64,000 nt of DNA from the NCBI RefSeq assembly GCF_040819555.1, contig NZ_CP161920.1, forward strand, positions 2,169,001 through 2,233,000, read 5' to 3'. Each line of letters opens with the position of its first letter. Position 1 is the first letter of the stretch. The position numbers were made by a program, and so were the translations under genes. Source of the DNA: Nitratireductor sp. GISD-1A_MAKvit. Its GTDB lineage: Bacteria; Pseudomonadota; Alphaproteobacteria; Rhizobiales; Rhizobiaceae. This document shows, in pieces, positions 1 through 52,531 of this stretch. The notes under the pieces are model-generated. The model searched no databases. It had not been told where the DNA came from and saw nothing but the letters and a program-made list of their open reading frames with translations.

Positions 1-1873
1 CGCTTGCCGAGGCGGCCCTATCTGGCAGCCCTGCCAAAAGGCCCTTCCAACTATCATCCGTTTCGTCATACCGAGCGTGCCATCGAGCGTCGCAACTGGG
101 TGATCGATCAGATGGTCGCAAACGGCTACGCCTCCGCTGAGGAAGGCGCGAAGGCAAAGGCGACGGATCTCAATGTCTCACCACGTCGTCGGGGCACATA
201 TCTGTTCGCCGGCGAGTACTTCACCGAGGAAGTTCGGCGCGACATCATTTCCCGCTACGGGGAAGATGCTCTCTACGAAGGGGGGCTGTCGGTTCGCACG
301 ACACTGGATCCACAATTGCAGCGTTACGCCCGCAAGGCCCTGCAGAACGGCCTGATCCGCTACGATACATTGCGTGGTTACCGGGGCCCGGTCACACGGA
401 TCGATGTTTCGGGCGACTGGGGCGTGCCGCTGGCTGAGGTTCAGGGGCTGAGCGATGTTCCCGAGTGGAAGCTGGCGGTTGTCCTTGGCACCGAAGATGG
501 CAAGATTTCCATCGGACTGAAGCCCGAACGCAAGATGTCCGGCGAATTGTCCGATCAGCGTGAAACAGGCACGATCGCGCTGGACGACATGAAATGGGCG
601 ATGCGCCACGTGGTGGATGGCAAGCGCGTCAAGGCCGCGAGGCAGTCCGACGTTCTCAAGCCCGGCGATGTGATCTTTGTCGAAAAGAAAGCCGATACCG
701 AGCGCGCGTGGAAACTGCGCCAGGTCCCCGAAATCGAAGGCGCGCTCGTTGCCATGGATCCACACACGGGGCGCGTTCTGGCCATGGTTGGCGGCTTTTC
801 CTATTCGGGCTCGCAGTTCAACCGTGCCACCCAGGCCTATCGGCAGCCCGGATCAGCCTTCAAACCCATCGTCTATGCGGCTGCGCTCGACAATGGGTAC
901 ACGCCGGCCCTCCGTCGTTCTCGACGCGCCGATTTCGATCCAGGTCGGCAATGATGTCTGGGAGCCGAAGAACTACGGCGGCAAATCCGCAGGCCCGTCA
1001 ACTCTGCGGGCAGGCATCGAGCGGTCCAGGAACCTTATGACCGTGCGACTTGCCAAGGATATGGGCATGCAGCTGGTTGCCGATTATGCCGAGCATTTTG
1101 GCATCTACGACAAGATGCTTCCGGTTCTTGCCATGTCACTCGGTTCCGGCGAAACCACGGTGATGCGGATGGTGTCCGCCTATGCAGTCATGGCAAATGG
1201 CGGGAAACAGATTGTTCCCTCTCTGGTCGACCGCATTCAGGATCGCTACGGCAAGACCGTCTACAAGCATGATCGCCGTGAATGCATCGGCTGTGTCGCG
1301 ACCGAATGGAAGGGCCAGGACGAGCCGGAAATCGTCAATGACAGGGAGCAGGTCCTCGATCCGATGACAGCCTATCAGATCACTTCCATGATGCAGGGGG
1401 TTGTATCTCGCGGAACTGCCGTAAGTGTTTCCGAGCTCGGACGCCCCATCGCGGGCAAGACAGGCACGACCAATGATGAAAAGGATGCCTGGTTTGTTGG
1501 GTACACGCCCGATCTGGTGGTTGGCGTCTTCATGGGCTTCGACACTCCGAAGCCCATGGGACGTGGCTCCACCGGTGGTGGTCTTGCTGCACCGGTTTTC
1601 AAGGAGTTCATGGCGAAAGCCCTGGAAAACATGCGGCCGGTGGATTTTCAGGTCCCAGAAGGCATGAACATCATTCCAATCGACCGAAAGACCGGGATGC
1701 GTGCGCAGGCGGGCCAGCCCGGCGTCATCATGGAGGCGTTCAAGCCTGGCACCGGACCTGCCGACAGCTACTGGGTCATCGGCATGGAAGATCTCGAAGG
1801 GGCGGGCCAGCAGCGCGTGATCTCTCCGCAGGCCAACCGGGCTGTCAATTCCGGAGCCGGTGGTCTCTACTGA
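1..1873 (+). CDS. mrcA: Class A penicillin-binding protein 1A, C-terminal part (5' end outside window)
   Basis: Bifunctional peptidoglycan glycosyltransferase/transpeptidase of the inner membrane. The window opens near the end of the glycosyltransferase domain ([19 protein letters not shown]). It continues through the linker/OB-like region and the transpeptidase domain, with the three active-site motifs in order: SAFK (near 860), SRN (near 1025) and KTGT (near 1460). The reading frame breaks twice by one extra base, in GGCCC at 14-18 and again at 906-910. Removing one C at each site restores a continuous protein ending at 1873. An apparent start at position 4 is therefore false. The gene precedes prfB with about 120 bases between. 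Identity is firm; the breaks look like sequence errors, because both parts keep all motifs without other damage. Confidence 0.93.
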
Positions 1874-1994
1874 TCCTCACTCACTGGTTGGAGAGTGTCT
1901 GCTTTACACGGGCGGACACGCTCCATATGTTCCGTCACGATTCAGGGCGCAGCTTCTGAAACCGCAACCACAATATTCGAGGTGTTGATCTGCA

Positions 1995-3127
1995 ATGCGT
2001 GCGGAAACCGAAAAACTTGTCGACGAAATCAAGCAGGCCATAAGCCTGCTGAGGAGGCATCTTTGACTGGGATGAGGCTGTAAAGAGACTGGATTATCTC
2101 AATGCCCGCGCCGAAGAGGCCGATCTGTGGAACGATCCGCAGGAGGCGCAAAAACTGATGCGCGAACGTCAGTTGCTGGACGAGAGCATCAATGGCGTTC
2201 TCCAACTCACACAATCGCTCGAAGACAGTGTGGGGCTGATCGAGCTTGGTGAAGAAGAAGGCGACAGCGATGTGGTCGCAGAAGCCGAGGAGACGCTGCG
2301 CGGCCTGAGCGAGCAGATTGCGGCACGTCAGGTCGAATCGCTTCTGTCCGGTGAGGCTGACGGCAACGACACCTATCTCGAGATACACGCCGGTGCCGGT
2401 GGCACGGAAAGCCAGGACTGGGCGCAGATGCTTCTGCGTATGTACACGCGTTGGGCGGAACGCCGGGGCATGAAGGTCGATGTTATGGAGCTGCACGACG
2501 GCGAGGAGGCGGGCATCAAGTCGGCCACTCTGCAGATTCGTGGCCGCAATGCATATGGCTGGCTGAAAACGGAGTCGGGCGTTCACCGCCTGGTCCGCAT
2601 TTCGCCATACGACAGCAATGCGCGCCGCCACACGTCGTTCGCAAGTGCCTGGGTTTATCCGGTCATCGACGATACGATCGACATCGACATTCCCGACTCG
2701 GATGTTCGGATTGACACCTACAGGGCATCGGGTGCCGGTGGACAGCATGTGAACACCACGGATTCGGCCGTTCGCATCACTCACATCCCATCGGGCATTG
2801 TTGTGCAGTGCCAGAAAGAGCGTTCCCAGCACAAGAACCGTGCGTCGGCCCTGGGACATGCTTCGTGCGCGGCTCTACGAGGAGGAGCTCAAGAAGCGTG
2901 AGGATGCAGCCAGCGCGACAGAGGCCTCCAAGACCGATATCGGCTGGGGACATCAGATCCGTTCCTACGTGCTTCAGCCTTATCAGCTGGTGAAGGATCT
3001 GCGCACCGGCGTTGAGAGCACCAGCCCTCAGGACGTGCTTGACGGAAAACTCGATGCCTTCATGGAGGCGGCACTGTCACAGCGTGTTCACGGGACCGAT
3101 ACGGGCGATGTCGAGGATATTGCCTGA
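1995..3127 (+). CDS. prfB: Peptide chain release factor 2
   Basis: RF2 releases nascent chains at UGA and UAA codons. Translation starts at ATG 1995 ([15 protein letters not shown]) and needs the programmed +1 shift at 2061-2067. The GGQ-type hydrolysis motif lies in [16 protein letters not shown] near 2735, inside the conserved domain that follows [17 protein letters not shown] second break, an extra C in GGCCC at 2847-2851, splits [17 protein letters not shown]. This one has no recoding signal and matches the window-wide GGCC anomaly. With both corrected the protein is about 376 residues, normal for the family. A strong terminator follows. Confidence 0.95.
2052..2067 (+). promoter_or_regulatory. 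prfB: Programmed +1 frameshift site of prfB
   Basis: The first prfB frame from 1995 runs 23 codons to CTT TGA C at 2061-2067. An internal Shine-Dalgarno-like AGGAGG at 2052-2057 sits three bases before the CTT slip codon. This is the classic RF2 autoregulatory signal: low RF2 lets ribosomes pause at UGA and slip +1 to read GAC. The downstream frame then continues [12 protein letters not shown], as in RF2. Unlike the other frame breaks in this window it is not at a GGCC and is an established biological signal. Confidence 0.95.
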
Positions 3128-3153
3128 GATTACAGGGCTCTGATTTTCCGATG

Positions 3154-3184
3154 CGGGCGGGTGTTGCGATACCCGCCCGTTTTC
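3154..3184 (+). terminator. Intrinsic terminator after prfB
   Basis: Nine-base stem CGGGCGGGT (3154-3162) pairs with ACCCGCCCG (3171-3179) across an eight-base loop and is followed by TTTT. It lies between the convergent prfB and M23 peptidase genes. Only the plus-strand side has a T-run. Confidence 0.88.
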
Positions 3185-4483
3185 TTATGACTTGGCGTCG
3201 AGGTACTTGGCGATCTTCCTGCCCACTGCCAGAAAGCGGGCCGGATTGACCGCGTTGCCGGAGCGGCGCACTTCATAGTGGAGATGCGGCCCGGTGGAGC
3301 GTCCGCTGGAACCGACTTTTCCCAGGGGGGTACCCGCCTCAACCCTGGTCCCCTTCGTGACGCTGATCTTGCTCAGATGCGCATAGCGGGTGGTCAGGCC
3401 GTTTCCATGGTCGATTTCAACCATGCGCCCGTAGCCGCCATTCCAGCCGGCCTTGATGACCGTTCCTGCACCGGTGGCCAGAACCGGGGTGCCACGTGCT
3501 GCCCTGAAGTCTATGCCGGAATGATGCGCCAGTCGTCCAAGGAAAGGGTCCTTGCGGGCGCCAAACCGGCTGGAAACGGAAGCGCCCGGGGCAGGGCTTT
3601 TAAGCGGTAGCTGCAATGCAGTCGACTTGACCTCGTTCAGATGTGTGAGTGCTTCGTCGAGCTCCCGCACATGATCTTCGAAAACGAGTGCCGAAGTGGA
3701 TGCCAGCAACGGGCCGCCGACACTCTGTTCGCGGTCTACGGAGGCATGCATGAGACCGACATCCTCCAGCGGACCGGCTATTGCATCGGCTGTCTGATAT
3801 GCGTTCTCCGCCAGTACCCGCACGCTGTCGATCTGCTCCGTCTCGATGGATTCGAGCGCGCGGTTGAGTTTCACAAAGAGATAATCGGCTTTGTCTGCGG
3901 GAGAAAGTACGGCGGGCTGTTGATTGCTCTGGGAGCGTAGCGGCCAGGGAATGCTGCTATCATGCGATGGTGCGAAGGAAGCCACGGCGATGCTGCCGGT
4001 GCGGGTGGGGTCGATGACCGGGGTGGCACTGGCCTTTACGCGCGGGCGTGGACTGGGAACAGGTGCCTTTCCTGGAAGATCTTCGGCGCCCTTGCTGTTT
4101 AGTACGGGTGTCAGCCTGCTTTGGCGTTTGGTCAACTGATCCTGCCGTGCCAGCAGTTCTCCGACCTTCTCCTGCATGAACTGCTGATCCAGCAATTGCC
4201 GGCTCGTGACCCGGTCCAGCTGCGCACGCAGGGCAGATATCCGGTCTTCATAGGCCTGCTGCAGCCGCGCCTGCCTCGCCATTGCGGCCCCGATCAGATC
4301 ATCGCGCAAAACCAGATAGGAGGTCGCCAGAAGATAGCCGATGGCAAGCGCGGCAACGGTTGAACCCGCTATTGCCGCCATCCACGGCCGCACCGTGAAG
4401 TGCCGGATTTCATCGCCACGCGCAATGATGATCGTGTGGGGCTCTTTCCGTTTGCCGAATACGGCAGATCGCTGTGAGTGCAT
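3185..4483 (-). CDS. Membrane-anchored M23 (LytM-type) peptidase
   Basis: 432-residue protein with a short cytoplasmic N-terminus and one transmembrane helix (about residues 34-57, MAAIAGSTVAALAIGYLLAT). A Gln/Arg/Leu-rich coiled-coil follows (about 70-130), then a proline-rich linker and a C-terminal peptidase_M23 domain. The zinc and catalytic residues are present: HSGIDF (H...D), YAHL and HLHYE. The layout resembles periplasmic EnvC/NlpD- or MepM-like proteins that either cut peptidoglycan or activate amidases. The intact metal ligands favour an active endopeptidase. The gene is convergent with prfB and lies about 100 bases downstream of bcp on the same strand. The specific partner cannot be told from sequence. 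Confidence 0.88.
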   Translation of the reverse strand: MHSQRSAVFGKRKEPHTIIIARGDEIRHFTVRPWMAAIAGSTVAALAIGYLLATSYLVLRDDLIGAAMARQARLQQAYEDRISALRAQLDRVTSRQLLDQQFMQEKVGELLARQDQLTKRQSRLTPVLNSKGAEDLPGKAPVPSPRPRVKASATPVIDPTRTGSIAVASFAPSHDSSIPWPLRSQSNQQPAVLSPADKADYLFVKLNRALESIETEQIDSVRVLAENAYQTADAIAGPLEDVGLMHASVDREQSVGGPLLASTSALVFEDHVRELDEALTHLNEVKSTALQLPLKSPAPGASVSSRFGARKDPFLGRLAHHSGIDFRAARGTPVLATGAGTVIKAGWNGGYGRMVEIDHGNGLTTRYAHLSKISVTKGTRVEAGTPLGKVGSSGRSTGPHLHYEVRRSGNAVNPARFLAVGRKIAKYLDAKS

Positions 4484-4586
4484 CGAAAACCGAACTTCTG
4501 TTCATGAGACAGGACTGGTTTTTGATTACACTTGATTAGGGTTAATAAAGATTTTCAGAGAAACCTTTGTGTGGCCCAAAGAGCGA

Positions 4587-5066
4587 TCAGCTGGCGAGCC
4601 TGAGCTTTCTGGCCGCCTCCAGAACGGCCTGGGCATGCCCGGCGACCTTAACCTTTCGCCAGATTTCAGCGACGTTCCCCTCAGCGTCGATAAGGAATGT
4701 CGTTCGCTCGACGCCCATGTATTTGCGCCCATACATGCTTTTTTCAACCCACACGCCGTAGTCGTGCAGCGCAATCTTTTCCTGATCGGAAACCAGGTCA
4801 ATCGTGAGCGCATGCTTGGCCTTGAACTTGTCATGGCTTTTGGGCGTGTCAGGAGACATGCCCAGCACCACCGCGCCCAGAGCATCGAACTCGGGCTTGA
4901 GCGCGGTAAAGTCTATGGCTTCGGCGGTGCAGCCGCTCGTGTCGTTCTTGGGGTAGAAAAACAGAACGACGATCCGGCCACGCAAGTCAGCCAGTCTGAT
5001 CTCGCGGCCACCGTCACCGGGAAGCACAAAATCCGGAGCCGGGTTCCCAATGGCGACTTCTGTCAT
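4587..5066 (-). CDS. bcp: Thioredoxin-dependent thiol peroxidase (Bcp/PrxQ)
   Basis: Cytoplasmic peroxiredoxin that reduces hydrogen peroxide and organic hydroperoxides. I chose ATG 5066 (MTEVAIGNPAPDF) because an AGGGGA-type ribosome-binding site precedes it; a longer frame to 5189 has no family support. That gives 159 residues. The peroxidatic cysteine is C46 in NDTSGCTAEA. The residue five places later, where two-Cys members of the family carry the resolving cysteine, is isoleucine, so this looks like a one-Cys-type Bcp. It is transcribed away from the AsmA-like gene, with about 95 bases between the two starts. Confidence 0.9.
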   Translation of the reverse strand: MTEVAIGNPAPDFVLPGDGGREIRLADLRGRIVVLFFYPKNDTSGCTAEAIDFTALKPEFDALGAVVLGMSPDTPKSHDKFKAKHALTIDLVSDQEKIALHDYGVWVEKSMYGRKYMGVERTTFLIDAEGNVAEIWRKVKVAGHAQAVLEAARKLRLAS

Positions 5067-5161
5067 TTTCTTTCCCCTGTTTGTGGATAGGCGATGGATT
5101 GCAGAGATATAATGATGTCGGTGGATTCGTCCATGGCTGCGGGGTATCGACAGGAACAGTT

Positions 5162-8100
5162 GTGGATCAGCACGAGGCTTCACGCACAAAAGTCAGGTTC
5201 AGACGCGGCGACATCGCTGCGCTGGAAACATATCCTTCATCGCGTGGGGGGGCGCGCTCCGGGCTAAGGCACACTCGTGTCCTGCGCTGGTTCCGGCGGG
5301 TGCTGTTGAGCGTTGCATCGGTTGCGGCACTGCTGGTGGTTGCAGCGCTGCTGCTCAATGTCGTTGGGACCGGAACCTTTGGTCAGGATCGCCTGCGCAA
5401 CGCTGCCCAACGCGCATTGACCTCGCTCGCCGGGTATGAGGTTGAGGCAGAAATCGGCGCTCTGCGCCTTGTTCTCAATGATCGCAGCCTGATCGCTCTG
5501 GAGCTCAGCGATGTCGAAATTGCGAGGGCTGCGACCGATGAGACCCTCATCGACGCAGACATTTTGCGGTTTGGCTTCCGCCTGCTGCCGCTCTTCAAGG
5601 GACAGCTAAACGTCGGCAATGTCGAGCTCGTTGGGGCCACGGTTCAACTGGAAGCATTGTCGCAACAGTCCAACGAGGTCGCCGCGGTGGCGCAATGGCA
5701 AAAGCCCGTGAACCCTGCGCTGGTCGAAAACAGTATTTTTGATGGCCTGCGACGCATTTATGCTTTGACGGAGCGTGTGGGAACACGCCATTTGCGGCTT
5801 CGCGACGTATCCATCGTCCTTGATCGGGAGACACAGCGCAGCGTTGCGGTGGATATCAATGCATCCATGGCCCCTTCGGGAAAGCTTGAGTTTCGCGCGA
5901 CTGCAGCTCTCGACGGGAGAGAGATCGAGCTTACCGGCGCTGCCCTGCGGCCCGTGCGCAACGGACCGATCAAGTCTCTCGACGTGGAGATTGGTGCGGC
6001 AGAGCCGGGCTTGCTTTCAGCTGCGCGCAACGAAACCGAGCTCCGTGGCCACGGCTCGTTTCTCTCTGCCTTTCATATTTCCCTGAAGGGCGGCGAAGCA
6101 ACAGTCGGGCAGGGGAGACTGGAGATCGAACTGGCGCTGGACAAGGCGCCTTTCGATCTTGGCGACGATGGCGTCCTGACGGCCTCGGGGCGTGTTCTTG
6201 CCCGGGTCGACAGGGATGCGGGCATGCTGATCATCAGGCGTGCCAACCTCATGGTGGGACGCTCTGCCTTTGATTTCCAGGGGCGTATTGCTCCTGAGGA
6301 GTCTTCCGATTCCGAAGGTGCCGTTTACCGTTTCGATCTTGCAAGCGCCAAATCGACCATCGCTCCCGTTGACTCACCGGAGGCATCTGTTCCGTTTGTC
6401 GCTGCGGGGTCGGGCAGGATCGATACCGGGACCGGCCGTATCATCGGCGACACGATACGCATTGCCACCACGACCGGAGTGATCACAGCCAGTGCGGCCG
6501 TCGCTTTTGAGGCCGGAAAGACGCCCGGCCTTTCTCTTGCCGTTTACACGGAAGGCATGCCCACTCACGAGGTAAAACAGTTCTGGCCCTGGTTTGCTGC
6601 TTCCGGTGCTCGAGAATGGGTGCTTGAAAACCTGTTCGGAGGGCGGGTGGTTGAAGGCAATCTGCGATTGCGGGTACCGCCGGGTCGTTTCGGCAACGGA
6701 AAACCGCTCGACAGGGATGAGGTGAGCGGGGCTTTCGAGGTGGCCAATGCCCGCTTTGACATCGCCGGGCGTATTCCTCCGGTGCGTGACGCCGCAGGCC
6801 GCATCTCGTTTGCTGGCTCAGACATCGACATAGCGATCGACGCCGGGACCGTTTACATGCCGAGTGGACGCAGGGTCGCGGCCAGCAACGGCACTCTGAC
6901 GGTGCGCGATGCTCACATCAAGCCCCGGATCGGAAAGCTCGACATCGATGTTTCGGGGAAGGCGCCTGCAATCGTGGAGCTTGCGTCCTATGAACCGATC
7001 GACGTGTCCGACCAGATCGATCTGGCTCCCGACGATGTGACCGGTGACGTCTCTGGTCATGTCCAGGCTGATATTCCCCTCAGCGATGGAATTGCGCGAG
7101 AAGACCTGGGTTGGCAGGCGACGTTCGAATACGACAATCTGTCCATTGCAAAGTCGTTCGATGGCCAGATGGTGGCGGCAGCCAAGGGGGTATTGATGGT
7201 CGAGCCGGGTCGGGCGGACATATCCGCTTCAGCGACGCTGAATGGCATCCCGGCAAAGCTCGAGCTTGTCGAACCGTTTGGCAGGTCGTCGGTCAAACGG
7301 TCTCGCAAAATCTCCCTCTCTCTGGACGACAAGGCGCGTCGCAAGGTTGTGCCGGGGCTTGATGGCATTCTGGCAGGGCCGGTAGAGGTCGACTATTCCG
7401 AACTGAACGATGGACGAAAGGCTCTTTCGGTCAAGCTGGACCGCGCGCGCCTGTCCCTTCCATGGATCAACTGGAGCAAGGGACCGGGTATCCCGGCCAC
7501 GGCTTCCTTTGTTCTGGCCGAAAGTTCCTCCTCCATGGAGCTCACCGAATTCCAGCTTTCAGGAAAATCCTTTTCGGCAACCGGGCGCCTCACGCTCTCT
7601 TCCGGCAGGCTTTCGAGCGCCCGGTTCGAGAAGGCCCGGCTTAACCGCGGCGACAGTTTTTCTGTTGCGATCGACCGGCAGGGCGACCGATACAATGTGA
7701 CGGTTCGCGGCGCTACGGTCGATGGACGTGCGGTCATCAAGCATTATCTGGGGGCGGGGCAGGCGCGCGCAGCATCTGGCGACGGCGGGGATATCGGTGC
7801 CGGGGTCCGGCTTGATGCGAAAATTGAACGTGTCACGGGTTTCGGTGGTGCGGTATTGCACGGCGTAGCGCTGAGCTATTCGGCGGATGCCGGAAAGACC
7901 GGGAGGCTTGATCTGAGCGCCACGACAGCCTCGGGGGGCAATGTGACGCTTCGGCGCGATGCCAAGGGTATTGCCGCCAACACGTCTGATGCGGGCAGCG
8001 TGGTCAGGTTCGTGGATTTCTACGAAAACATGGAGGGGGGGCAGATGACTGTCTCCCTCAGCCAGGGCAATGAAGGCGTTCTGAGCGGTCGGGTCTCGGC

Positions 8101-8530: not shown

Positions 8531-8534
8531 AAGC

Positions 8535-8566
8535 AATAAAAAACGTGCGTCCGGATGGACGCACGT
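8535..8566 (-). terminator. Intrinsic terminator of tyrS
   Basis: ACGTGCGTCC (8543-8552) pairs with GGACGCACGT (8557-8566) across a GGAT loop. The A-rich tract at 8535-8543 gives a U-run on the minus strand, so it serves tyrS. Read on the plus strand it has no T-run, so the AsmA-like gene may share only the hairpin. Confidence 0.85.
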
Positions 8567-10847: not shown

Positions 10848-12012
10848 ATGTCGGCAATGCGTGCATATCTCGACTACAACGCCAGTGCGCCTCTTTTGGA
10901 GAGTGCGCGCGCGGCAATGGTCGATGCACTGGCCCTGCCGGCGAATCCCTCATCGGTGCACACTGAAGGGCGAGCTGGCCGGCGCGTGGTCGATGATGCT
11001 CGCCGGACGGTGGCGTCGCTCGTGGGCGGCTCGCCCGAAAATGTGGTGTTCACATCGGGTGCGACCGAGGCCGCTGCCACATTGCTGACCCCGCGCTGGA
11101 AGATGGGGCGTGCGCCTCTCGTGGCTTCCGCCGTTTATGTCAGTGCGGCCGACCATCCGTGCCTATTGATGGGCGGGCGCTTTGGCGCCGGTTCCGTCAG
11201 GATGACAGGCGTCCGTCCAGACGGTCGGATCGATCTGGACGATCTTGAAATGCAGCTTTCCCGCCACGACCGGGAAGCGGGCGTTGCACTGGTGGCCATC
11301 CACGCGGTCAACAATGAGACGGGTGTCATTCAGCCGCTTGCCGAAATCGGCAGAATAGCCAGGGCCCACGGCGCCATCATCGTTTTGGATGCCGTTCAGG
11401 CTGCGGGAAGAATTAAGCTCGATATTACAGCCGGATACGCGGATTATTTCATTCTCTCCTCGCACAAGATCGGTGGTCCCAAGGGGGCTGGTGCCATTGT
11501 TGGCAGTGCGGATCTGATGATGCCTGAGCCGCTGATTGATGGCGGTGGGCAGGAAAAGGGCCATCGTGGGGGTACCGAGAATGTGCCAGCCATTGCCGGC
11601 TTCGGCGCAGCCGCAGAAGAGGCGCTCGACGCGCTCGGGCATGCGTCCACACTGACAGCCATGCGCGATCGTTTTGAGGCAACAGTCCTCAGACATGTTC
11701 CCGATGCGGTTTTCCACGGGCGAGAGGCGCCGCGTGTCGGCAATACGAGCTTTTTCTCGATACCCGGAACCAGGGCCGAAACGGCGCAGATCGCTTTTGA
11801 CCTTGCGGGCGTGGCGCTCTCGGCAGGTTCGGCCTGTTCGTCGGGGCCGGGTGGGGCCGAGCCACGTGCTGGAGGCCATGGGACTTGGGGACCAGGCAAG
11901 TGCATTGAGGATCTCCATCGGTCGAGCAACCGGTGAGAGCGAGCTGGCGCTTTTCGACGCTGCACTGGCCAATATCGCCCGGCGACGCAAGGGGGCTTTC
12001 GAGGCTGCCTGA
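10848..12012 (+). CDS. Cysteine desulfurase family protein (IscS/NifS-like), first gene of suf operon
   Basis: PLP enzyme that takes sulfur from cysteine for Fe-S assembly. The chosen start is ATG 10848 (MSAMRAYLDYNASAP); ATG 10857 is also possible. Class V aminotransferase features are present: the PLP-binding lysine in SSHKIGGPKGAG and the mobile-loop cysteine in SAGSACSSG. The frame breaks just after that cysteine by one extra G in GGGGCC at 11843-11848. Correcting it gives RVGPSHVLEAMGL and a normal C-terminus at 12012, about 387 residues. It is the first of two cysteine desulfurases in the operon (SufS is the other). Its product is closest in style to the IscS/NifS group, so it may serve a different acceptor from SufS. 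Confidence 0.88.
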
Positions 12013-12194: not shown

Positions 12195-13719
12195 ATGCCT
12201 GCCGTGCAGGAGACGATTGATCAGGTCCGCATGATCGATGTGGATCAGTACAAATATGGTTTCGAGACCCTCATCGAAAGCGATCTCGCCCCCAAGGGGC
12301 TGAATGAGGACATCATCCGTTTCATTTCGGCCAAGAAGGAAGAGCCGGAATGGATGACGGAATGGCGGCTGAACGCCTACAAGCGCTGGCAATCCATGGA
12401 AGAGCCAGGCTGGGCGCGTGTCAGCTATCCCAAGATCGATTTTCAGGACCTGCATTATTACGCGGCTCCGAAGAGCCAGTCCGGTCCCAAGTCGCTGGAT
12501 GAAGTCGATCCGGAACTGCTTCGTACTTACGAGAAGCTCGGTATCCCATTGAGGGAACAGGAGATTCTTGCTGGTGTGCGCAAGCAGGGCGAGCCGAGTG
12601 AACTGCAAGATAATCCGAGCGACAATGTCTACAGCTCCGGCCGGGTTGCGGTCGATGCGGTATTCGACTCCGTTTCGGTCGTGACCACCTTCAAGGAGGA
12701 GCTTGCCAAGGGCCGGCGTGATCTTCTGTTCGATTTCCGAGGCAATCCGCGAGCATCCCGAGCTGATCCAAAAATATCTGGGATCGGTCGTGCCGGTTTC
12801 GGACAATTATTACGCTGCGCTCAACTCGGCAGTTTTCACCGACGGTTCGTTTGTCTACGTGCCCAAGGGCGTTCGCTGCCCGATGGAATTATCAACATAT
12901 TTCCGCATCAACGAGCGCAATACCGGCCAGTTCGAGCGCACGCTGATCATTGCGGAAGAGGGCGCTTATGTGTCCTATCTGGAAGGCTGCACTGCGCCGC
13001 AACGCGACGAAAACCAGCTGCACGCGGCCGTTGTCGAGCTGATTGCGCTGGACGATGCGGAGATCAAGTACTCCACCGTTCAAAACTGGTACCCGGGTGA
13101 CTCCGAGGGCAAGGGCGGCATCTACAACTTCGTCACCAAGCGCGGCGATTGCCGGGGCAACAATTCCAAGATTTCCTGGACCCAGGTCGAGACCGGTTCG
13201 GCGATCACGTGGAAGTACCCCTCCTGCATCCTGCGTGGCGACAACAGCCGCGGCGAGTTCTACTCGATTGCCGTGTCCAACGGCCATCAGCAGATCGATT
13301 CCGGCACCAAGATGCTGCATCTGGGCAAGAACACGTCGAGCCGCATCATCTCCAAGGGCATTTCCGCCGGCAATTCGCAGAACACCTATCGCGGACAGGT
13401 TTCGGCGCACCGCAAGGCGGCCAATGCCCGCAACTTCACCCAGTGTGACAGCCTGTTGATCGGAAACGAGTGTGGCGCTCACACGGTGCCCTATATTGAA
13501 GCCAAGAATGCCACCGCGCAGTTTGAGCACGAAGCAACCACCTCGAAGATTTCCGAGGATCAGCTGTTCTATGTCATGCAGCGTGGCATTCCCGAGGAAG
13601 AGGCGATCGCTCTCATCGTCAATGGCTTCGTCAAGGACGTCATCCAGGAATTGCCGATGGAATTCGCCGTCGAGGCGCAGAAGCTTATCGGTATTTCGCT
13701 TGAAGGTTCGGTCGGCTGA
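12195..13719 (+). CDS. sufB: Fe-S cluster assembly scaffold protein SufB
   Basis: SufB joins SufC and SufD in the cytoplasmic SufBC2D scaffold that builds Fe-S clusters. The start is ATG 12195 ([13 protein letters not shown]) behind GGAGA. The frame breaks at 12710-12714, where GGGCC carries one extra G; restored, the text reads [21 protein letters not shown]. The corrected protein is about 507 residues. Conserved landmarks include [21 protein letters not shown], the beta-helix core, [19 protein letters not shown] and the C-terminal [15 protein letters not shown] segment. A 180-base gap without a recognised element separates it from the upstream desulfurase gene. Confidence 0.96.
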
Positions 13720-19674: not shown

Positions 19675-20449
19675 TCAGTAACGGAACTGCTCTGAAAGTA
19701 TGCGTTCGTTCCAGGAGTGGCTCTCATCGAACAGCACGGTGATGGTCTCGGAGTGAGATTCGCGCACCGTCACCGACACCACCGATTTGATTTCCGTGTG
19801 ATCTGCGACCGCGTTCACCGGGCGCTTTTCGGGCTCCAGAATGTCGAAATGTACCGTTGCCTGATTGGAAAGGAGGGCGCCGCGCCAGCGCCGTGGGCGA
19901 AACGGGCTCACCGGCGTCAGCGCGAGAAGGGGGGCGTCGAGGGGAAGAATGGGACCATGCGCCGACAGGTTGTACGCGGTGGATCCCGCCGGAGTTGCCA
20001 CCATCACTCCGTCGCAGATCAATTCCTCAAGGCGCAGTTTCTCATCGATCGAAATTCGGATCTTGGCGGCCCTGATAGGACTGGCGCAGGAGCGACACTT
20101 CGTTCACGGCAAGTGCCCTGAATCTTTCGCCATTGGCATCCGTTGCCTCCATTTGAAGCGGACGAACCGTTTCCGGGATAGCGGCTGCGACCCGTTCGCG
20201 CAGACCCTCCTCACGATACTCGTTCATCAGGAAACCGATGGAACCACGGTTCATGCCATAGATGCGTTTTCCGGCTCCCATGGTTTCACGCAATGTGTGC
20301 AGCATGAACCCGTCGCCGCCAAGAGCGACGATCACGTCAGCATCTTCGGGACGCTCCTGGCCATAGAGCGCGGAAAGGCGTTTGGCCGCCTCGCGTGCGT
20401 CTTCGGTATCGGCAGAAACAAAGGCGAGGGCCATTGCTTGGTGGGTCAT
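19675..20449 (-). CDS. nadK: NAD kinase
   Basis: Phosphorylates NAD to NADP in the cytosol. The start is at 20449 ([18 protein letters not shown]). Motifs: the catalytic GGDGFML, the conserved NEVSLLRQ region and [21 protein letters not shown] in the C-terminal domain. One extra base in GGCCC at 20068-20072 (GGGCC on the coding strand) breaks the frame between QSYQ and [13 protein letters not shown]. Corrected, it is about 257 residues, typical for alphaproteobacterial NAD kinases. Both halves keep all motifs, so I treat it as one functional gene. Confidence 0.93.
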
Positions 20450-24494: not shown

Positions 24495-25671
<1,177 letters not shown>

Positions 25672-25718
25672 GAAGCGCAACGGCGCTTCACACGCGTCGC
25701 TGACATATCGCTGATTTG

Positions 25719-29426: not shown

Positions 29427-29804
29427 ATGGCTGATCTTGCTAAGATCGTTGAAGACCTGTCGAGCCTGACCGTCCTCGAGGCGGCTGAGCTTTCCAAGAT
29501 GCTTGAAGAGAAGTGGGGCGTTTCCGCCGCAGCTCCGGTGGCTGTTGCTGCCGCTGCCGGTGGCGCTGCCGGTGGCGACGCTGCTGAAGAGAAGACCGAG
29601 TTCGACGTCGTTCTCGCCGATGCAGGCGCTCAGAAGATCAACGTCATCAAGGAAGTTCGCGGCATCACGGGTCTCGGCCTGAAGGAAGCCAAGGACCTCG
29701 TTGAGTCCGCTCCCAAGGCGATCAAGGAAGGCGTGTCCAAGGACGAAGCCGAGAAGATCAAGGAGCAGCTCGAAGGCGCAGGCGCCAAGATCGAGCTGAA
29801 GTAA
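29427..29804 (+). CDS. rplL: 50S ribosomal protein L7/L12
   Basis: 125 residues: an N-terminal dimerisation helix pair ([27 protein letters not shown]), an Ala/Gly-rich hinge ([20 protein letters not shown]) and the factor-binding C-terminal domain ([24 protein letters not shown]). It is the multi-copy GTPase-activating stalk protein. It follows rplJ by 51 bases with an AAGGAA ribosome-binding site. Confidence 0.98.
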
Positions 29805-29813: not shown

Positions 29814-29912
29814 CGGTCCGCGTGGATTTCGATCTGCGCGGACCGGAACACTGAAGTGGAACCGAAACCTATTTCCTGTGGGCCGCAAGCGGTCGTCAGG
29901 AAACGGGTTTTT
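29814..29912 (+). promoter_or_regulatory. rplL-rpoB attenuator-like hairpins
   Basis: Two stem-loops fill the gap. CGGTCCGCG (29814-29822) pairs with CGCGGACCG (29837-29845). TTTCCTG (29872-29878) pairs with CAGGAAA (29897-29903), with an inner GGCCGC-AA-GCGGTC, and is followed after CGGG by TTTTT (29908-29912). A partial terminator and an RNase III site occupy this gap in E. coli, so a similar uncoupling of rpoBC from the ribosomal genes is plausible. Confidence 0.6.
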
Positions 29913-29983
29913 ATCCGTTTGGATTGACCGCCGGGATGGCGGTTCATGTGGTGCATGCAAGCCAGGCAGGGCAAGGAGCGACG

Positions 29984-34125
<4,142 letters not shown>

Positions 34126-34200: not shown

Positions 34201-38473
<4,273 letters not shown>

Positions 38474-42476: not shown

Positions 42477-43652
<1,176 letters not shown>

Positions 43653-44022: not shown

Positions 44023-44105
44023 GGCGCAAGACAAAAAGTCAGGAACCCGAGCTTTCCCCGTGATTATTCGGGAGAGGCTGGGAACCCCGAAAGGAAATCG
44101 AACCG

Positions 44106-45738: not shown

Positions 45739-45759
45739 TCGGGCGGCGAGGAAGAGACA

Positions 45760-46596: not shown

Positions 46597-46612
46597 GGAA
46601 AGGTAGCGGCAA

Positions 46613-46891
46613 GTGTCCCGTTCAGTCTGGAAAGGCCCCTTCGTCGACGGCTATCTCCTGAAGAAGGCCGAGAAGGTGCGCGATAGCGGCCGTAACGAGG
46701 TTATCAAGATGTGGAGCCGTCGCTCCACCATCCTGCCCCAGTTCGTGGGTTTGACCTTTGGTGTTTACAACGGCCAGAAGCACATTCCCGTATCCGTCTC
46801 CGAGGAGATGGTCGGTCACAAGTTTGGTGAGTTTGCTCCGACCCGCACCTATTACGGCCATGGGGCGGACAAGAAGGCAAAGAGGAAATAA
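46613..46891 (+). CDS. rpsS: 30S ribosomal protein S19
   Basis: 92 residues from GTG 46613 (product [20 protein letters not shown]), with AAGGAAAGG upstream. Core [21 protein letters not shown] and [27 protein letters not shown]. It forms the head of the 30S subunit with S13, encoded at 55548. The GTG start is the only reasonable one. Confidence 0.97.
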
Positions 46892-46893
46892 CG

Positions 46894-47283
46894 ATGGGCA
46901 AGGCCAAAGCGCCGCGCAGGCTTGCTGACAACGAGGCTCGTGCCGTATTGCGCACGATCCGCGTCAGCCCGCAGAAGCTTAACCTTGTTGCTGCGATGAT
47001 CCGCGGCAAGAAGGTGGCGACCGCGCTCGCCGACTTGGAGTTCTCGCGCAAGCGGATCGCCGAGACCGTCAAGAAGACGCTGGAATCGGCAATCGCTAAT
47101 GCGGAAAACAATCACGATCTGGACGTGGATGCGCTGGTCGTGGCCGAAGCCCATGTCGGCAAGTCGATCGTGATGAAGCGGTTCCATGCGCGTGGTCGTG
47201 GCCGCGCCAGCCGCATCGAGAAGCCGTTCTCGCATCTGACGATCGTCGTGCGCGAAGTGGAAGAGAAAGTGGAGGCCGCCTGA
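46894..47283 (+). CDS. rplV: 50S ribosomal protein L22
   Basis: 129 residues. N-terminal [27 protein letters not shown], the tunnel beta-hairpin [21 protein letters not shown] and C-terminal EVEEKVEAA. It contacts all domains of 23S rRNA. It is two bases after rpsS and shares one base with the rpsC start. An AGGCCG at 47273-47278 in its last codons is intact, a useful counter-example for the frame anomaly. Confidence 0.98.
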
Positions 47284-47990
47284 TGGGTCAGAAAATCAAT
47301 CCGATCGGGTTCCGTCTCGGTATCAACCGCACATGGGATTCCCGCTGGTACGCCAACGATGGTGAGTACGGCGATCTGCTTCACGAGGATTTCAAGATCC
47401 GCAACTACATCGAGAAGGAGCTCAAGCAGGCTGCCATCTCCAAGGTTGTGATCGAGCGTCCGCACAAGAAGTGCCGCGTCACCATTCACTCGGCGCGTCC
47501 TGGCCTGATCATCGGCAAGAAGGGCGCCGACATTGAGAAGCTGCGCCGCAAGGTTTCGCAGATGACCAATGCCGAAACCCACCTCAATATCGTTGAGGTT
47601 CGCAAGCCCGAGATCGACGCAACGCTGATTGCACAGTCGATTGCACAGCAGCTCGAGCGTCGTGTGGCTTTCCGCCGTGCCATGAAGCGTGCCGTTCAGT
47701 CGGCCATGCGTCTTGGCGCAGAAGGTATCCGCATCAACTGTGCCGGCCGTCTCGGCGGTGCAGAGATCGCCCGGATGGAATGGTACCGCGAGGGCCGCGT
47801 TCCGCTGCACACGCTGCGCGCCGATGTCGATTACGGCACTGCTGAAGCAAAGACCGCTTATGGCATCTGCGGCGTGAAGGTCTGGGTGTTCAAGGGCGAG
47901 ATCCTCGAACATGACCCGATGGCTTCCGAGCGCCGTGCCACGGAAGGTGATCAGGGCGGCAGCAGCAACCGGCGTCGCGAGAACGCTTAG
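47283..47990 (+). CDS. rpsC: 30S ribosomal protein S3
   Basis: 235 residues: [23 protein letters not shown], the KH motif [18 protein letters not shown] and the C-terminal domain [36 protein letters not shown]. The C-terminal tail is Arg/Asn/Gly-rich. It lines the mRNA entry site and acts as a helicase with S4. It starts inside the rplV stop codon. Confidence 0.98.
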
Positions 47991-48010
47991 GAATTTTGGA
48001 GTAGAGAACG

Positions 48011-48424
48011 ATGCTGCAACCAAAGCGCACAAAGTTCCGCAAGCAGTTCAAGGGCCGTATCCACGGCGTTGCCAAGGGCGGCACGGAACTCAACTTTGGA
48101 TCCTTCGGTCTGAAGGCTCTTGAACCGGAACGCGTTACCGCGCGTCAGATCGAAGCGGCTCGCCGTGCGATCACCCGCTACATGAAGCGTCAGGGCCGCG
48201 TCTGGATCCGTATCTTCCCGGATCTTCCGGTAACCTCGAAGCCGACCGAGGTCCGCATGGGTAAGGGTAAGGGCTCTGTCGATTACTGGGCATGCCGTGT
48301 TAAGCCCGGCCGCGTGATGTTCGAGATTGACGGCGTTGGTGCCGATGTGGCGCGTGAAGCGTTGCGCCTGGGTGCTGCGAAATTGCCGGTCAAGACGCGC
48401 TTCGTGCAGCGTATTGCAGAGTAG
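48011..48424 (+). CDS. rplP: 50S ribosomal protein L16
   Basis: 137 residues: [24 protein letters not shown], the conserved [27 protein letters not shown], and [23 protein letters not shown]. It sits near the A site and is one of the last proteins added to the 50S. It is 20 bases after rpsC with a GGAGT site. Confidence 0.98.
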
Positions 48425-48438
48425 GAAAGGCGGACGCT

Positions 48439-48639
48439 ATGAAGGCTGTTGATGTCAGGGCGATGACGCCGGATCAGCTCAACGACGAGCTGGTCAAACT
48501 CAAGAAAGAGCAGTTCAACCTTCGTTTTCAGAAAGCGACTGGTCAGCTCGAAAAAACCGCACGCGTTAAAGAAATCCGTAGGGATATCGCGCGCATTAAG
48601 ACAATCGCGGCCGAGAAGTCGGCTGCTAGCAAGGCCTGA
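48439..48639 (+). CDS. rpmC: 50S ribosomal protein L29
   Basis: 66 residues of helical hairpin: [53 protein letters not shown]. It lies at the tunnel exit next to L23. It is 14 bases after rplP and 11 before rpsQ, with a GGAAAGG site. Confidence 0.97.
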
Positions 48640-48650
48640 GGACAGCGAAT

Positions 48651-48893
48651 ATGCCAAAGCGCGTTTTGCAGGGCACCGTGGTGAGCGACAAGAACGACAA
48701 GACTGTTGTCGTCCGTGTCGAGCGTCGCTTTACCCATCCGATGATGAAGAAAACGGTGCGCATGTCCAAGAAGTACAAGGCGCACGATGAAGAGAATTCG
48801 TGCAAGGTTGGTGATCAGGTGATGATCCAGGAGACCGCGCCGATTTCGAAGGACAAGAACTGGGTCGTCCTCAAGGACGCTCAGGCGCAGTAA
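48651..48893 (+). CDS. rpsQ: 30S ribosomal protein S17
   Basis: 80 residues: [29 protein letters not shown] and the OB-fold end [21 protein letters not shown]. It is a primary 16S rRNA binder. It ends the S10-type gene group; a 65-base gap with no terminator separates it from rplN. Confidence 0.98.
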
Positions 48894-48958
48894 GTATTGA
48901 AATTGCCGGAAAGCGGAGTATCTGGACCGCTTTCCATTGAACGAGAAGGCGGCCAGTC

Positions 48959-49327
48959 ATGATTCAGATGCAAACAAACCTCGATGTGGCGGATAATTCC
49001 GGCGCACGTCGTGTCATGTGCATCAAGGTGCTTGGCGGTTCGAAGCGGAAATATGCCTCTGTGGGCGACATCATTGTCGTGTCCGTTAAAGAGGCTATCC
49101 CGCGCGGCCGCGTGAAGAAAGGCGATGTGATGAAGGCAGTTGTTGTGCGTACGGCGAAGGATATTCGTCGCGCCGACGGCAGCGTCATCCGCTTCGACAA
49201 GAACGCAGCCGTTCTGGTCGACAACAAGAAAGAGCCTGTCGGCACGCGTATCTTCGGACCGGTCCCGCGCGAACTTCGCGCCAAGAACCATATGAAGATC
49301 ATTTCGCTCGCGCCGGAAGTGCTCTAG
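48959..49327 (+). CDS. rplN: 50S ribosomal protein L14
   Basis: 122 residues: [44 protein letters not shown] and the C-terminal [24 protein letters not shown]. It forms intersubunit bridges and is the target of the silencing factor RsfS. It is the first gene of the spc group. Confidence 0.98.
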
Positions 49328-49339
49328 GAGGCCGGGGAT

Positions 49340-49654
49340 ATGCAGAAGATTAAAAAAGGCGACAACGTCGTCGTTCTGGCCGGCAAGGACAAGGGCCGTA
49401 CCGGCGAAGTGGTGAAGGTGATGCCGAAGGAAGACAAGGCGCTTGTGCGCGGCGTCAACCTGGTTCGCCGCCATCAGAAGCAGTCCGCTCAGGCAGAGGG
49501 CGGCATCATTACCAAGGAAGCGCCGATTCATCTTTCGAATCTTGCGCTGGCCGATCCGAAGGATGGCAAGCCGACCCGTGTCGGCTTCAAGGTCCAGGAA
49601 GATGGCAAGAAGGTGCGCGTGGCAAAGCGCTCTGGAGAATTGATCGATGGCTAA
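49340..49654 (+). CDS. rplX: 50S ribosomal protein L24
   Basis: 104 residues with the KOW motif ([27 protein letters not shown]), then [13 protein letters not shown] and [12 protein letters not shown]. It is an assembly initiator of the 50S. It overlaps the rplE start by eight bases, indicating coupled translation. Confidence 0.98.
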
Positions 49655-50204
49655 TGCTCAGTACCAGCCGCGCTGGAAGAAGAAGTATGACGAGGTGATC
49701 CGCAAGGAACTCCTCGAAACCTTCAAATACGAGAACGAGATGCAGGTGCCGCGCATCGAGAAAATCGTCATCAACATGGGCGTTGGCGAGGCCACCGGCG
49801 ATTCCAAGAAGCCAGCTTCGGCTGCGGATGATCTCGCCAGGATTTCGGGCCAGAAGCCGGTCATCACGCGTGCCTCCAAGTCGATCGCCGGCTTCAAGGT
49901 GCGTGAGGGCATGCCGCTTGGCACCAAGGTCACGCTCCGCAAGGACCGCATGTACGAATTTCTGGATCGGCTGGTGACGATCGCGCTGCCGCGCGTTCGC
50001 GACTTCCGCGGCCTCAATCCGAAAAGCTTCGATGGCCGCGGCAACTTCGCCATGGGCCTCAAGGAGCACATCGTGTTCCCTGAAATCAATTACGACCAGG
50101 TCGATGAGATTTGGGGAATGGACATCATCGTCTGCACGACTGCAAAAACCGACGACGAAGCGCGGGCCTTGCTCAAGGCCTTCAACTTCCCGTTCCGGCA
50201 GTAA
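49647..50204 (+). CDS. rplE: 50S ribosomal protein L5
   Basis: 185 residues: the N-terminal [23 protein letters not shown], then [46 protein letters not shown] and the C-terminal [21 protein letters not shown]. It binds 5S rRNA and contacts P-site tRNA. It begins within rplX. Confidence 0.98.
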
Positions 50205-50231
50205 CGGCAGGCGAGAAGAAGGACAACTTAA

Positions 50232-50537
50232 ATGGCAAAAGTCAGCGCAGTCGAAAAGAACAAGCGTCGGCGCAAGCTGGTTGATCGCTATGCTGCCAAG
50301 CGTGCAGCGCTCAAGGCGATCATCAAGGATCAGTCGAAGCCGATCGAGGAGCGCTTCCAGGCGCAGCTCAAGCTTTCTGCTCTTCCACGCAATTCCTCCA
50401 AGACGCGTATTCGTAACCGGTGCGATGTTACCGGGCGTCCGCGTGCGTATTATCGCAAATTGAAGATGTCGCGTATCGCGCTGCGTGAACTGGGCAATAA
50501 CGGGCTCATCCCGGGCCTGGTTAAGTCGAGCTGGTAA
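50232..50537 (+). CDS. rpsN: 30S ribosomal protein S14 (zinc-free type)
   Basis: 101 residues: [29 protein letters not shown] and the C-terminal [28 protein letters not shown]. The long form without the CxxC zinc motif pairs of short S14, as usual in proteobacteria. It is 27 bases after rplE, with an AGAAGGA site. Confidence 0.97.
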
Positions 50538-50549
50538 GGGGTAGAAACG

Positions 50550-50948
50550 ATGTCCGTTAATGATCCGCTCGGCGATATGCTGACCCGCATCCGCAATGCC
50601 ATTGGCCGTAACAAGCCGAAGGTATCAACGCCGGCTTCCCGTCTTCGCGCACGCGTGCTCGATGTTCTGAAGTCTGAAGGCTATATCCGTGATTATAGCC
50701 AGATCGACTACGATAACGGCAAGTCCGAGATCGAGATCGAGCTGAAGTATGCCGAAGGTGGCTCGGTGATCCGTGAGATCGCCCGTGTTTCCAAACCGGG
50801 CCGTCGGGTTTACGTGTCGGTCAGATCCATTCCGCAGGTTGCGAATGGGCTTGGTATCGCCATCCTTTCCACGCCCAAGGGCGTAATGGCTGATCACGAA
50901 GCTCGTGAACAGAATGTGGGCGGCGAGGTGCTCTGCCAGATCTTCTGA
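50550..50948 (+). CDS. rpsH: 30S ribosomal protein S8
   Basis: 132 residues: [48 protein letters not shown] and the C-terminal [31 protein letters not shown]. In E. coli it represses the spc operon at the rplE start; no test of that here. It is 12 bases after rpsN. Confidence 0.98.
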
Positions 50949-50986
50949 TCCGGCAGATAGCAGACGCAAAGAACGAGGGCAGACAA

Positions 50987-51520
50987 ATGTCTCGCATTGG
51001 CAAGAAGCCGGTCCCGGTGCCGCAGGGTGTCACCGCTCAGATCGAGGGCCAGACCGTTACGGCCAAGGGGCCTAAGGGCGAACTGAAGTTCGTCGTGAAC
51101 GACGAAGTTCTGGTCAAGCTTGAAGACGACGCGGTCGCTGTAGATCCGCGCGACCAGTCCAAGGACGCTCGCTCCAAATGGGGCATGACGCGCACGCAGA
51201 TCTCGAACATCCTGACAGGCGTCAAGGATGGTTTCGAGAAGCGTCTTGAGATCAATGGCGTTGGTTATCGCGCAGCGATGCAGGGAAAAAAACTGCAGCT
51301 TTCGCTTGGCTATAGCCACGAAGTGATTTACGAGGCTCCGGAAGGAATCACGATCACTGTTCCAAAGCCGACCGAAATCGTCATCGCCGGCATCGACAAG
51401 CAGGTGGTCGGACAGGTTGCGGCCGAGATTCGCAAGAAGCGTGGGCCTGAGCCTTACAAGGGCAAGGGCGTCAAATATGCGGACGAGACCATCGTTCGCA
51501 AAGAAGGCAAGAAGAAGTAG
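50987..51520 (+). CDS. rplF: 50S ribosomal protein L6
   Basis: 177 residues: [52 protein letters not shown], and the C-terminal signature [28 protein letters not shown]. It lies by the sarcin-ricin loop. It is 38 bases after rpsH and 11 before rplR. Confidence 0.98.
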
Positions 51521-51531
51521 GAACCCGAACC

Positions 51532-51891
51532 ATGGTCTCGAAAGTCTCCGTCAAGCGGCGTGCGGGACGTGTTCGCCGGAAGATCAAGGCGGTCTCCAAT
51601 GGCCAGCCCCGTCTTTCGGTCTACCGTTCCTCCAAGAACATCTATGTCCAGGTTATCGACGACGCCAAGGGCCACACGCTCGCGGCAGCTTCGACCCTCG
51701 ACAAGGATCTCAAGGGTCAGCTCAAGACCGGCGCAGATTCTTCGGCTGCAGCAGCCGTTGGAAAGCTGGTCGCAGAGCGCGCCAAGAAGGCAGGTGTTGA
51801 GGAAGTGGTCTTTGATCGCGGTCCTTACCTCTTCCACGGTCGCGTCAAGGCTCTTGCTGATGCAGCCCGCGAAGGTGGTCTGAAGTTCTAA
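51532..51891 (+). CDS. rplR: 50S ribosomal protein L18
   Basis: 119 residues: [36 protein letters not shown] and C-terminal [28 protein letters not shown]. It binds 5S rRNA with L5 and L25. It is followed by a strong hairpin before rpsE. Confidence 0.98.
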
Positions 51892-51897
51892 ATCGTT

Positions 51898-51922
51898 CGG
51901 GCGTTTCTTCTGGAAACGCCCG
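51898..51922 (+). promoter_or_regulatory. rplR-rpsE intercistronic hairpin
   Basis: CGGGCGTTTC (51898-51907) pairs perfectly with GAAACGCCCG (51913-51922) around TTCTG, a ten-base stem. No T-run follows, so transcription probably reads through; processing or mRNA stability is more likely. Confidence 0.6.
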
Positions 51923-51972
51923 GATTATCATTATCAAACCCGTGCTTCCGGAAAAGAACAAGGAAAAGGGCA

Positions 51973-52531
51973 ATGGCACAAGGACGTAGGGACGACCGTC
52001 GCGATCGTGATGAACGCGACAGCGAGTTCGTCGACAAGCTTGTACATATCAATCGCGTCGCCAAAGTGGTGAAGGGTGGTCGTCGTTTCGGCTTCGCCGC
52101 ACTCGTGGTGGTTGGCGATCAGAAGGGGCCGCGTTGGCTTCGGTCATGGCAAGGCGCGTGAGGTGCCGGAAGCTATCCGCAAAGCCACCGAGAGTGCCAA
52201 GCGCGACATGGTGTTTGTGCCGCTGCGCGGTGGACGTACGCTCCATCACGATGTTGCAGGCCGCCACGGCGCGGGCCGCGTGTTCCTGCGTGCTGCAAAG
52301 CCCGGTACCGGTATCATCGCCGGTGGTCCGATGCGCGCCGTTTTCGAGACGCTGGGCGTTCAGGACGTGGTTGCCAAGTCGCTGGGCTCCTCGAACCCCT
52401 ACAACATGGTTCGCGCGACCTTCGATGCCCTGAAGCATCAGTTGCATCCCAAGGACGTTGCTGCTCAGCGCGGCATTAAATATTCCACGCTTCAGGCACG
52501 CCGTGGCGCTGCCGCAGGCGGCGAGGAATAA
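51973..52531 (+). CDS. rpsE: 30S ribosomal protein S5 (frame broken once)
   Basis: S5 lies at the mRNA entry of the 30S and affects decoding fidelity. The start is ATG 51973 ([19 protein letters not shown]) with AAGGAAAAGG upstream. The frame breaks by one extra G in GGGGCC at 52125-52130; corrected text reads [20 protein letters not shown], the canonical S5 motif. Corrected length is 185 residues. Core [25 protein letters not shown] and C-terminal [13 protein letters not shown] are intact. As an essential single-copy gene it cannot be truly broken. Confidence 0.96.

Follow-up and report, generated by a model that had tools for sequence, protein, structure and literature searches.

The 64,000-nucleotide stretch of the Nitratireductor sp. 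GISD-1A_MAKvit genome analyzed here (hereafter the window; contig NZ_CP161920.1, positions 2,169,001 to 2,233,000, or G000:C2:2169001-2233000) carries eleven single-base frame breaks, each of which sits in a GGCC tetramer grown by one base. All eleven have been found by alignment to lie within genes and to be +1 relative to the congener G003, as a first-pass annotation made from the letters of this DNA had proposed. The breaks are almost certainly an artefact of the assembly, and we consider it very probable that they have been caused by phosphorothioation at GpsGCC through the DndABCDE system, the genes of which (dndA to dndE) are present on the same contig.

Enrichment of Frame Breaks at GGCC

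The genome, G000, measures 4.1 Mb over two contigs at 98.8% completeness and belongs to a genus sample of ten genomes, itself included. Of 80 named records retained from a scan with its rpoC, that of Mesorhizobium composti matches best, with 89% identity. The two-contig assembly suggests that the platform behind it was probably a long-read one. The window and 420 kb of adjoining DNA, 484 kb in total, have been compared with two congeners, G003 and G006, and subsequently with a third, G007, and a break has been called where the frame relative to the reference gene shifts, the shift persists over at least 45 alignment columns, and the flanking substitutions on both sides fall mainly in third codon positions (the coding filter). 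Names of broken loci have been taken from the intact G003 orthologues.

With the results for G003 and G006 merged (369,843 coding base pairs, bp), 40 of 43 coding breaks fall in enlarged GGCC; taken singly, G003 gives 30 of 30, all +1, G006 30 of 33 and G007 17 of 18. Every covering reference among the three gives +1 at all 40 sites, with two or three references at 27 of them and one at 13, and of the three breaks outside GGCC, two come from long alignments that are ambiguous, while the third has a short flank on its right. Tallied by motif, the enrichment reported in the first-pass annotation thus holds beyond the window, and a further 56,887 coding bp taken at scattered positions, for the most part in four regions of the main contig (the references covered 6 of 17 query stretches), have added seven breaks, all seven in enlarged GGCC. 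By arithmetic extrapolation from 40 breaks in 369,843 coding bp, rather than by a count, about 108 breaks per Mb would amount to a few hundred broken genes genome-wide.

GGCC loci make up about 13% of the G/C runs of at least two bases in the same coding DNA and yet hold 40 of the 43 breaks (binomial 2e-32). This bears on the suggestion that ordinary long-read error in short G/C runs, with no DNA modification at all, has produced the breaks. Such error would agree with a gained base that is G or C inside a G/C run in the 40 GGCC breaks, and with runs of at least four bases in 16 of the 37 that can be oriented. However, G/C runs outside GGCC outnumber those inside by nearly 7:1 and CCGG is as common (3,475 loci versus 3,051 of GGCC), yet no more than 3 of 43 breaks lie outside GGCC, and G003 (two contigs) and G007 (one contig), which are presumably long-read assemblies, show no kept GGCC break, making this explanation very unlikely. 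The broken share of GGCC sites is about 1% (40 broken, 3,043 unbroken).

The result has been stable when the minimum segment was varied, with 30 of 33, 30 of 30, 29 of 29 and 24 of 24 breaks against G003 lying in GGCC at 30, 60, 90 and 150 columns, respectively. The coding filter discards 49 of 79 raw frame-offset changes of G000 against G003 and 44 of 77 against G006, among them 11 and 10, respectively, beside enlarged GGCC; seven of these discarded GGCC changes are sites that have been retained against the other reference, the gene caller having picked another frame there. In the controls it discards 29 of 31 changes (G003 against G006), 29 of 29 (G006 against G003) and 19 of 20 (G007 against G003). 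When the filter is omitted, G000 has 125 single-base gains relative to all covering references, and 25 of them adjoin an enlarged GGCC.

Absence of GGCC Breaks in Related Genomes

In the compared coding DNA, G000 has 30 kept GGCC breaks per 2,564 sites, and the dnd-less congeners have none in 2,384 (G003), 2,369 (G006) and 1,391 (G007) sites, that is, 30 versus 0 of 6,144 (Fisher 1e-16). Breaks do occur in the control comparisons (two for G003 against G006, none for G006 against G003, one each for G007 against G003 and G006) and when the congeners are read against G000 (one in G003, one in G006, none in G007), and none of these lies at an enlarged GGCC. Of six additional congeners compared over rpoB-rpoC (9-13 kb of coding DNA each), five have zero kept breaks. 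G007 is a single contig listed as 86% complete, and yet no reference yields more than one kept frame break over 189 kb of its coding DNA.

The view that the extra bases are true insertions, either produced by a GGCC-aimed mutagenesis or tolerated by translational recoding, can draw on their presence in the deposited sequence and on the motif specificity of the process. It is nevertheless hardly credible, since essential genes are broken (rpoB twice, rpoC, rpsE), the insertions are absent from G003, G006 and G007 at every covered site, and in relatives with a close DndC the frames of dndB, dndC and dndD stay open over long distances in the stretches compared, so that dnd alone does not bring breaks. 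The sequencing or consensus error tied to the motif, and possibly to base modification, which had been preferred in the first-pass annotation, has strong support from breaks that are motif-confined, spread genome-wide, lacking at GGCC in the three congeners, and located in rpoB, rpoC, rpsE and an EF-Tu gene, among others.

Substitutions have given a less distinct picture. Where the references agree on GGCC, G000 differs at 395 of 985 sites, a fraction of 0.40 versus 0.20-0.37 and the highest of ten tetramers. G-to-A at the second G of GGCC and its mirror image account for 67 of the 395 (22 and 45), which is indistinguishable from ordinary divergence.

Sequence Context of the Broken Sites

When the G run is taken as the longer one, 37 of the 40 breaks can be oriented, and 35 of these 37 follow R-GGCC-K (a purine before and G or T after the core) as compared with 1,395 of 6,086 oriented unbroken sites. 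The base 3' of GGCC is G in 29 breaks, T in 8, and A or C in none; on the 5' side, 22 runs are preceded by A, 10 by C and 5 by T, the run having at least four G in 13 of these 15 C or T cases. Break rates at exact GGCC have been found to be 16 of 569 oriented sites for AGGCCG, 3 of 193 for AGGCCT and 0 of 676 for TGGCCG. The gained base is located in the run that adjoins the purine, and CGGCCT, which is AGGCCG read the other way, is broken in 1 of 554.

Within the window, ten of eleven breaks had been said to be followed by G, which is correct, with the site at 33406, followed by T, as the exception. Nine had further been said to have a purine before them; an A immediately precedes the enlarged run in 8 of 11, and the core GGCC is preceded by a purine in 10 of 11 when a fourth G is counted as the preceding base. 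The unharmed AGGCCG sites listed at 6510, 35181 and 47273 are indeed present and without a called break.

Candidate Modification Systems

The first-pass annotation had suggested that base modification at the motif would imply a GGCC-directed methyltransferase, and methylation of GGCC to 5-methylcytosine (m5C) or N4-methylcytosine (m4C) by such an enzyme of G000 is a conceivable cause of the errors. The family of m5C methyltransferases, PF00145, has no match in G000, and the same search was positive in 10 of 14 control genomes; m5C methylation of GGCC has therefore been rejected. PF01555 matches two proteins of G000, both with the motif DPPY. Among methyltransferase catalytic motifs DPPY is the adenine type and SPPY the counterpart to be expected for m4C, and GGCC has no adenine. 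One of the two enzymes is CcrM-like (646 bits against a cut-off of 830 with the Caulobacter CcrM model), and the other is an orphan at C2:955742-956623 (minus strand, L002) that occurs in one of the ten genus genomes, G000, which speaks in favor of methylation. An m4C enzyme for GGCC with an SPPY-type motif is not among the PF01555 proteins, other methyltransferase families lying outside this search. Methyltransferases normally fill nearly all of their sites, in contrast to the roughly 1% of GGCC sites that are broken here. It may still be that most GGCC sites are methylated and miscalled in some contexts only, or that an enzyme of another family is responsible. Although nanopore indels linked to methylation and mismatches linked to modification are described in print (PMC12506013, PMC10687267), methylation is overall an unlikely source of the breaks, and the implied methyltransferase has not been borne out.

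Because partial use of GGCC coincided with the lack of an m5C methyltransferase, a Dnd system was searched for before its presence in the genome was known, and a DndABCDE cluster has been found at C2:2.750-2.756 Mb. The genes dndB, dndC, dndD and dndE run divergently from dndA, a layout that is also that of Streptomyces lividans. The cut-offs of the NCBIfam models are met by DndA (TIGR03235, 510 bits, cut-off 480), the first piece of DndB (TIGR03233, 384.5 bits, cut-off 328), DndC (TIGR03183, 690 bits, cut-off 290) and DndE (TIGR03184, 128 bits, cut-off 72; also PF08870, 148 bits); the second piece of DndB is recognized by PF14072. The pieces of DndD match DndD/PbeC models, and the one scanned with NCBIfam reaches 183 bits with TIGR03185, below the cut-off of 246. 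DndC shares 59-62% identity with several Streptomyces DndCs and 39% with one from Escherichia coli, and it has no match among solved structures. Among matches on Streptomyces plasmids, four stretches (L209, L210, L211, L212) hold dndC without an annotated dndD or dndE; these solitary DndC homologues have been set aside, as have two Actinobacteria records whose annotation was not usable.

The system agrees with the GGCC core as well as with the partial use of sites to which the first-pass annotation had pointed, and it is rare: one of the ten genus genomes (G000) has a match to the DndE model and the nine congeners have none, and 11 of 394 family genomes match, among the others of which only G344 does so equally strongly. 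The dnd operon is itself affected, as merged breaks fall once in dndB and twice in dndD, each at or within about 15 bases of an enlarged GGCC, the place of the second dndD break varying by reference between 18251 and 18268 of L086. The split of dndD has probably been caused by the same artefact. Consequently, genes of the Dnd system appear degraded and escape annotation.

Around the cluster, selected frames have been scanned. A PbeA-like protein near dndA matches its model with 899 bits and the NCBIfam model dnd_restrict_1 with 161 bits, below the cut-off of 600, and a phage-type integrase, an HNH protein and an Mrr-type restriction protein lie on the opposite side (Table 1), so that the surroundings of dndA-E resemble those of a mobile defence island. 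The edges of this island gave no alignment with the reference stretches chosen. PbeABCD has been described (PMC6459918).

The Eleven Breaks of the Window

Ten of the window breaks have been recovered from window DNA, and that at 14-18 became visible once upstream DNA (L239) had joined the alignment; a further enlarged-GGCC frame break lies about 1,773 bases upstream of the window in the same DNA. One coordinate had to be corrected, as 33416-33421 holds CCGGCA and the actual break is found some ten bases away (Table 1). The intact G003 orthologues give the names PBP1A family (two breaks), cysteine desulfurase (NifS/IscS-like, with no model above its cut-off), SufB, NAD kinase, EF-Tu, rpoB (two breaks), rpoC and rpsE. 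The prfB orthologue spanned two stretches, and that name is taken over from the first-pass annotation; a CTTTGA motif of the recoding type is present at 2061. The window has two EF-Tu genes, one at 24495-25681 that is split at GGCC and one at 42477-43652 with an intact frame, and the second copy has no GGCC at the position that matches the break of the first.

The claim that no other kind of break occurs stands for the filtered comparisons with G003 and G006, in which all window breaks are at GGCC, and fails against G007, where one non-GGCC change of -2 at 29829 passes the filter. This change falls between open frames, one ending at 29804 and the next starting at 29924. Nine further unfiltered frame-offset changes against G003 have been taken to be gene edges and spacers.

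Table 1. Frame breaks of the window (window coordinates) and genes flanking the dnd cluster (coordinates within L086 and L087)
Feature	Position	Strand	Basis or place
+1 break, enlarged GGCC, PBP1A-family gene (mrcA of the first-pass annotation)	14..18	+	G003 alignment including upstream DNA L239
+1 break, enlarged GGCC, same PBP1A-family gene as 14..18	906..910	+	G003 alignment
+1 break, enlarged GGCC, prfB (name from the first-pass annotation)	2847..2851	+	congener alignment
+1 break, enlarged GGCC, cysteine desulfurase (NifS/IscS-like, below model cut-offs)	11843..11848	+	congener alignment
+1 break, enlarged GGCC, sufB	12710..12714	+	congener alignment
+1 break, enlarged GGCC, NAD kinase	20068..20072	-	congener alignment
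+1 break, enlarged GGCC, first EF-Tu gene	25295..25299	+	congener alignment
+1 break, enlarged GGCC, rpoB	32077..32081	+	three references agree
+1 break, enlarged GGCC, rpoB (second)	33406..33411	+	congener alignment
+1 break, enlarged GGCC, rpoC	35050..35054	+	congener alignment
+1 break, enlarged GGCC, rpsE	52125..52130	+	congener alignment
PbeA-like protein	L086 11907-13865	-	near dndA
Phage-type integrase	L087 1782-3242	-	opposite side of dnd cluster
HNH protein	L087 3593-4645	-	opposite side of dnd cluster
Mrr-type restriction protein	L087 4558-5478	-	opposite side of dnd cluster

Phosphorothioation as the Probable Origin of the Breaks

According to the explanation by phosphorothioation, DndA-E of G000 would replace a non-bridging oxygen of the DNA backbone by sulfur. 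The target would be GpsGCC, as in S. lividans and Pseudomonas fluorescens, and a small subset of GGCC sites with the local context R-GGCC-K would be modified. Where occupancy is high, the long-read signal of native DNA would deviate from the patterns familiar to the basecaller or consensus model, and the deviating signal would be called with one extra G (or C) within the run, provided that the consensus has been built from native-DNA long reads alone. That modification or methylation leads to strain-specific errors is documented (PMC10687267, PMC12506013, PMC11610573).

Several observations weigh against this explanation. Its support comes from the deposited assembly sequence, and the link between breaks and dnd is seen in one genome, with GGCC as the putative target of the G000 DndC suggested indirectly by the break pattern. 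Given the orphan PF01555 enzyme, at least two modification systems, dnd included, set G000 apart within its genus. Over 11,922 coding bp of rpoB-rpoC (L107), the dnd-less draft G001 (210 contigs) retains four breaks of -1, at one of which a GGCC run has fewer bases than its counterpart in G006; the four are losses, not gains, and probably draft errors. Some filter-discarded changes of the controls also lie beside enlarged GGCC (one for G003 against G006, three for G006 against G003, one for G007 against G003). Furthermore, G657 (two contigs), whose DndC is 73% identical, has no coding break in the 12,118 coding bp compared, and it may be polished, unmodified or undersampled. Finally, the GGCC errors reported for Pseudomonas aeruginosa in PMC12345217 are mostly G-to-A substitutions and not insertions.

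An independent long-read replicate did not turn up in DndE and DndC searches of 394, 385, 398 and 386 genomes, the matches of which were mostly many-contig assemblies. G657 has been the sole few-contig genome with a close DndC, and the one-contig genomes G112, G153, G527 and G609 match DndE or DndC distantly. At the place expected for rpoB and rpoC, G657 has one open frame of 2,801 amino acids (L221 5154-13556), which looks like a natural rpoB-rpoC fusion, the rpoC frames of congeners being about 1,400 amino acids long.

A wider proposal, for which we see even chances, joins three parts: that phosphorothioation can be recognized by its footprint in public long-read assemblies, where GGCC frame breaks would stand for near-fully sulfurated sites and hence give the local preference of Dnd (R-GGCC-K in G000), that two P. 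aeruginosa isolates show the same effect, and that the Dnd system disrupts the frames of its own dndB and dndD as they appear in the assembly, so that active Dnd systems would tend to be annotated as degraded. If phosphorothioation is indeed the cause, the deposited genome would contain, by accident, a map of a backbone modification at base resolution, and the activity and sequence preference of Dnd could be read from assemblies with no new experiments. Hundreds of genes (by extrapolation), dnd included, might then be falsely scored as broken in such genomes, and the GGCC errors in clinical nanopore typing that methylation did not explain in a 2025 study (PMC12345217) would obtain a testable cause.

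Comparison With Known Systems

In S. lividans, 471 d(GpsG) per million nucleotides have been reported within GGCC, at CGGCC or GGCCG, as a low-frequency modification (PMC6186775), and G*GCC is modified on both strands in P. fluorescens Pf0-1 (PMC11931770). Partial motif use is described as usual for phosphorothioation (PMC8053081), with a small part of sites being used, below 20% in the case of GAAC/GTTC (PMC9521924). G000 resembles the S. lividans system in the GGCC core of its putative target, the apparently low-frequency use of sites, the common G after GGCC and the set dndA-E. It differs in the context R-GGCC-K, the PbeA-like gene near dndA and the split dndB and dndD, and it is known from sequence alone.

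A published connection of phosphorothioation with errors of assembly or frame has not been found in the literature searched, the scope of which did not extend to bioRxiv and most subscription papers. The nearest precedent is the nanopore detection of phosphorothioates (Wadley et al., 2022, PMC9069010), in which the modification is reported to disturb the signal and to raise the local read error at GAAC/GTTC. That work concerns Salmonella and read-level error relative to a control, whereas in G000 the motif is GGCC and +1 insertions survive into the consensus.

In P. aeruginosa PA068 and PA188, nanopore quality has been reported to drop at 1,716 of 70,459 and 1,646 of 83,098 GGCC sites, about 2%, without explanation (PMC12345217, 2025; its main text contains neither "phosphorothio" nor "dnd"). 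By analogy, these errors may be the same effect as the breaks of G000, with which they share the GGCC motif, the small fraction of sites and the lack of a methylation that fits consistently. Unlike in G000, the residual errors, which number 46 and 25 positions in the two isolates and lie almost exclusively at GGCC, are described as mostly G-to-A and as having no common extended motif. The modification-mediated errors of Listeria are mostly mismatches at GCAGC/GCTGG according to PMC10687267, in contrast to the +1 insertions at GGCC in G000; they are likewise strain-specific and motif-confined, and have there been ascribed to a lineage-specific modification system. Among the genomes compared, the errors of G000 are confined to one motif and one strain lineage, as is characteristic for long-read consensus errors that are mediated by DNA modification.

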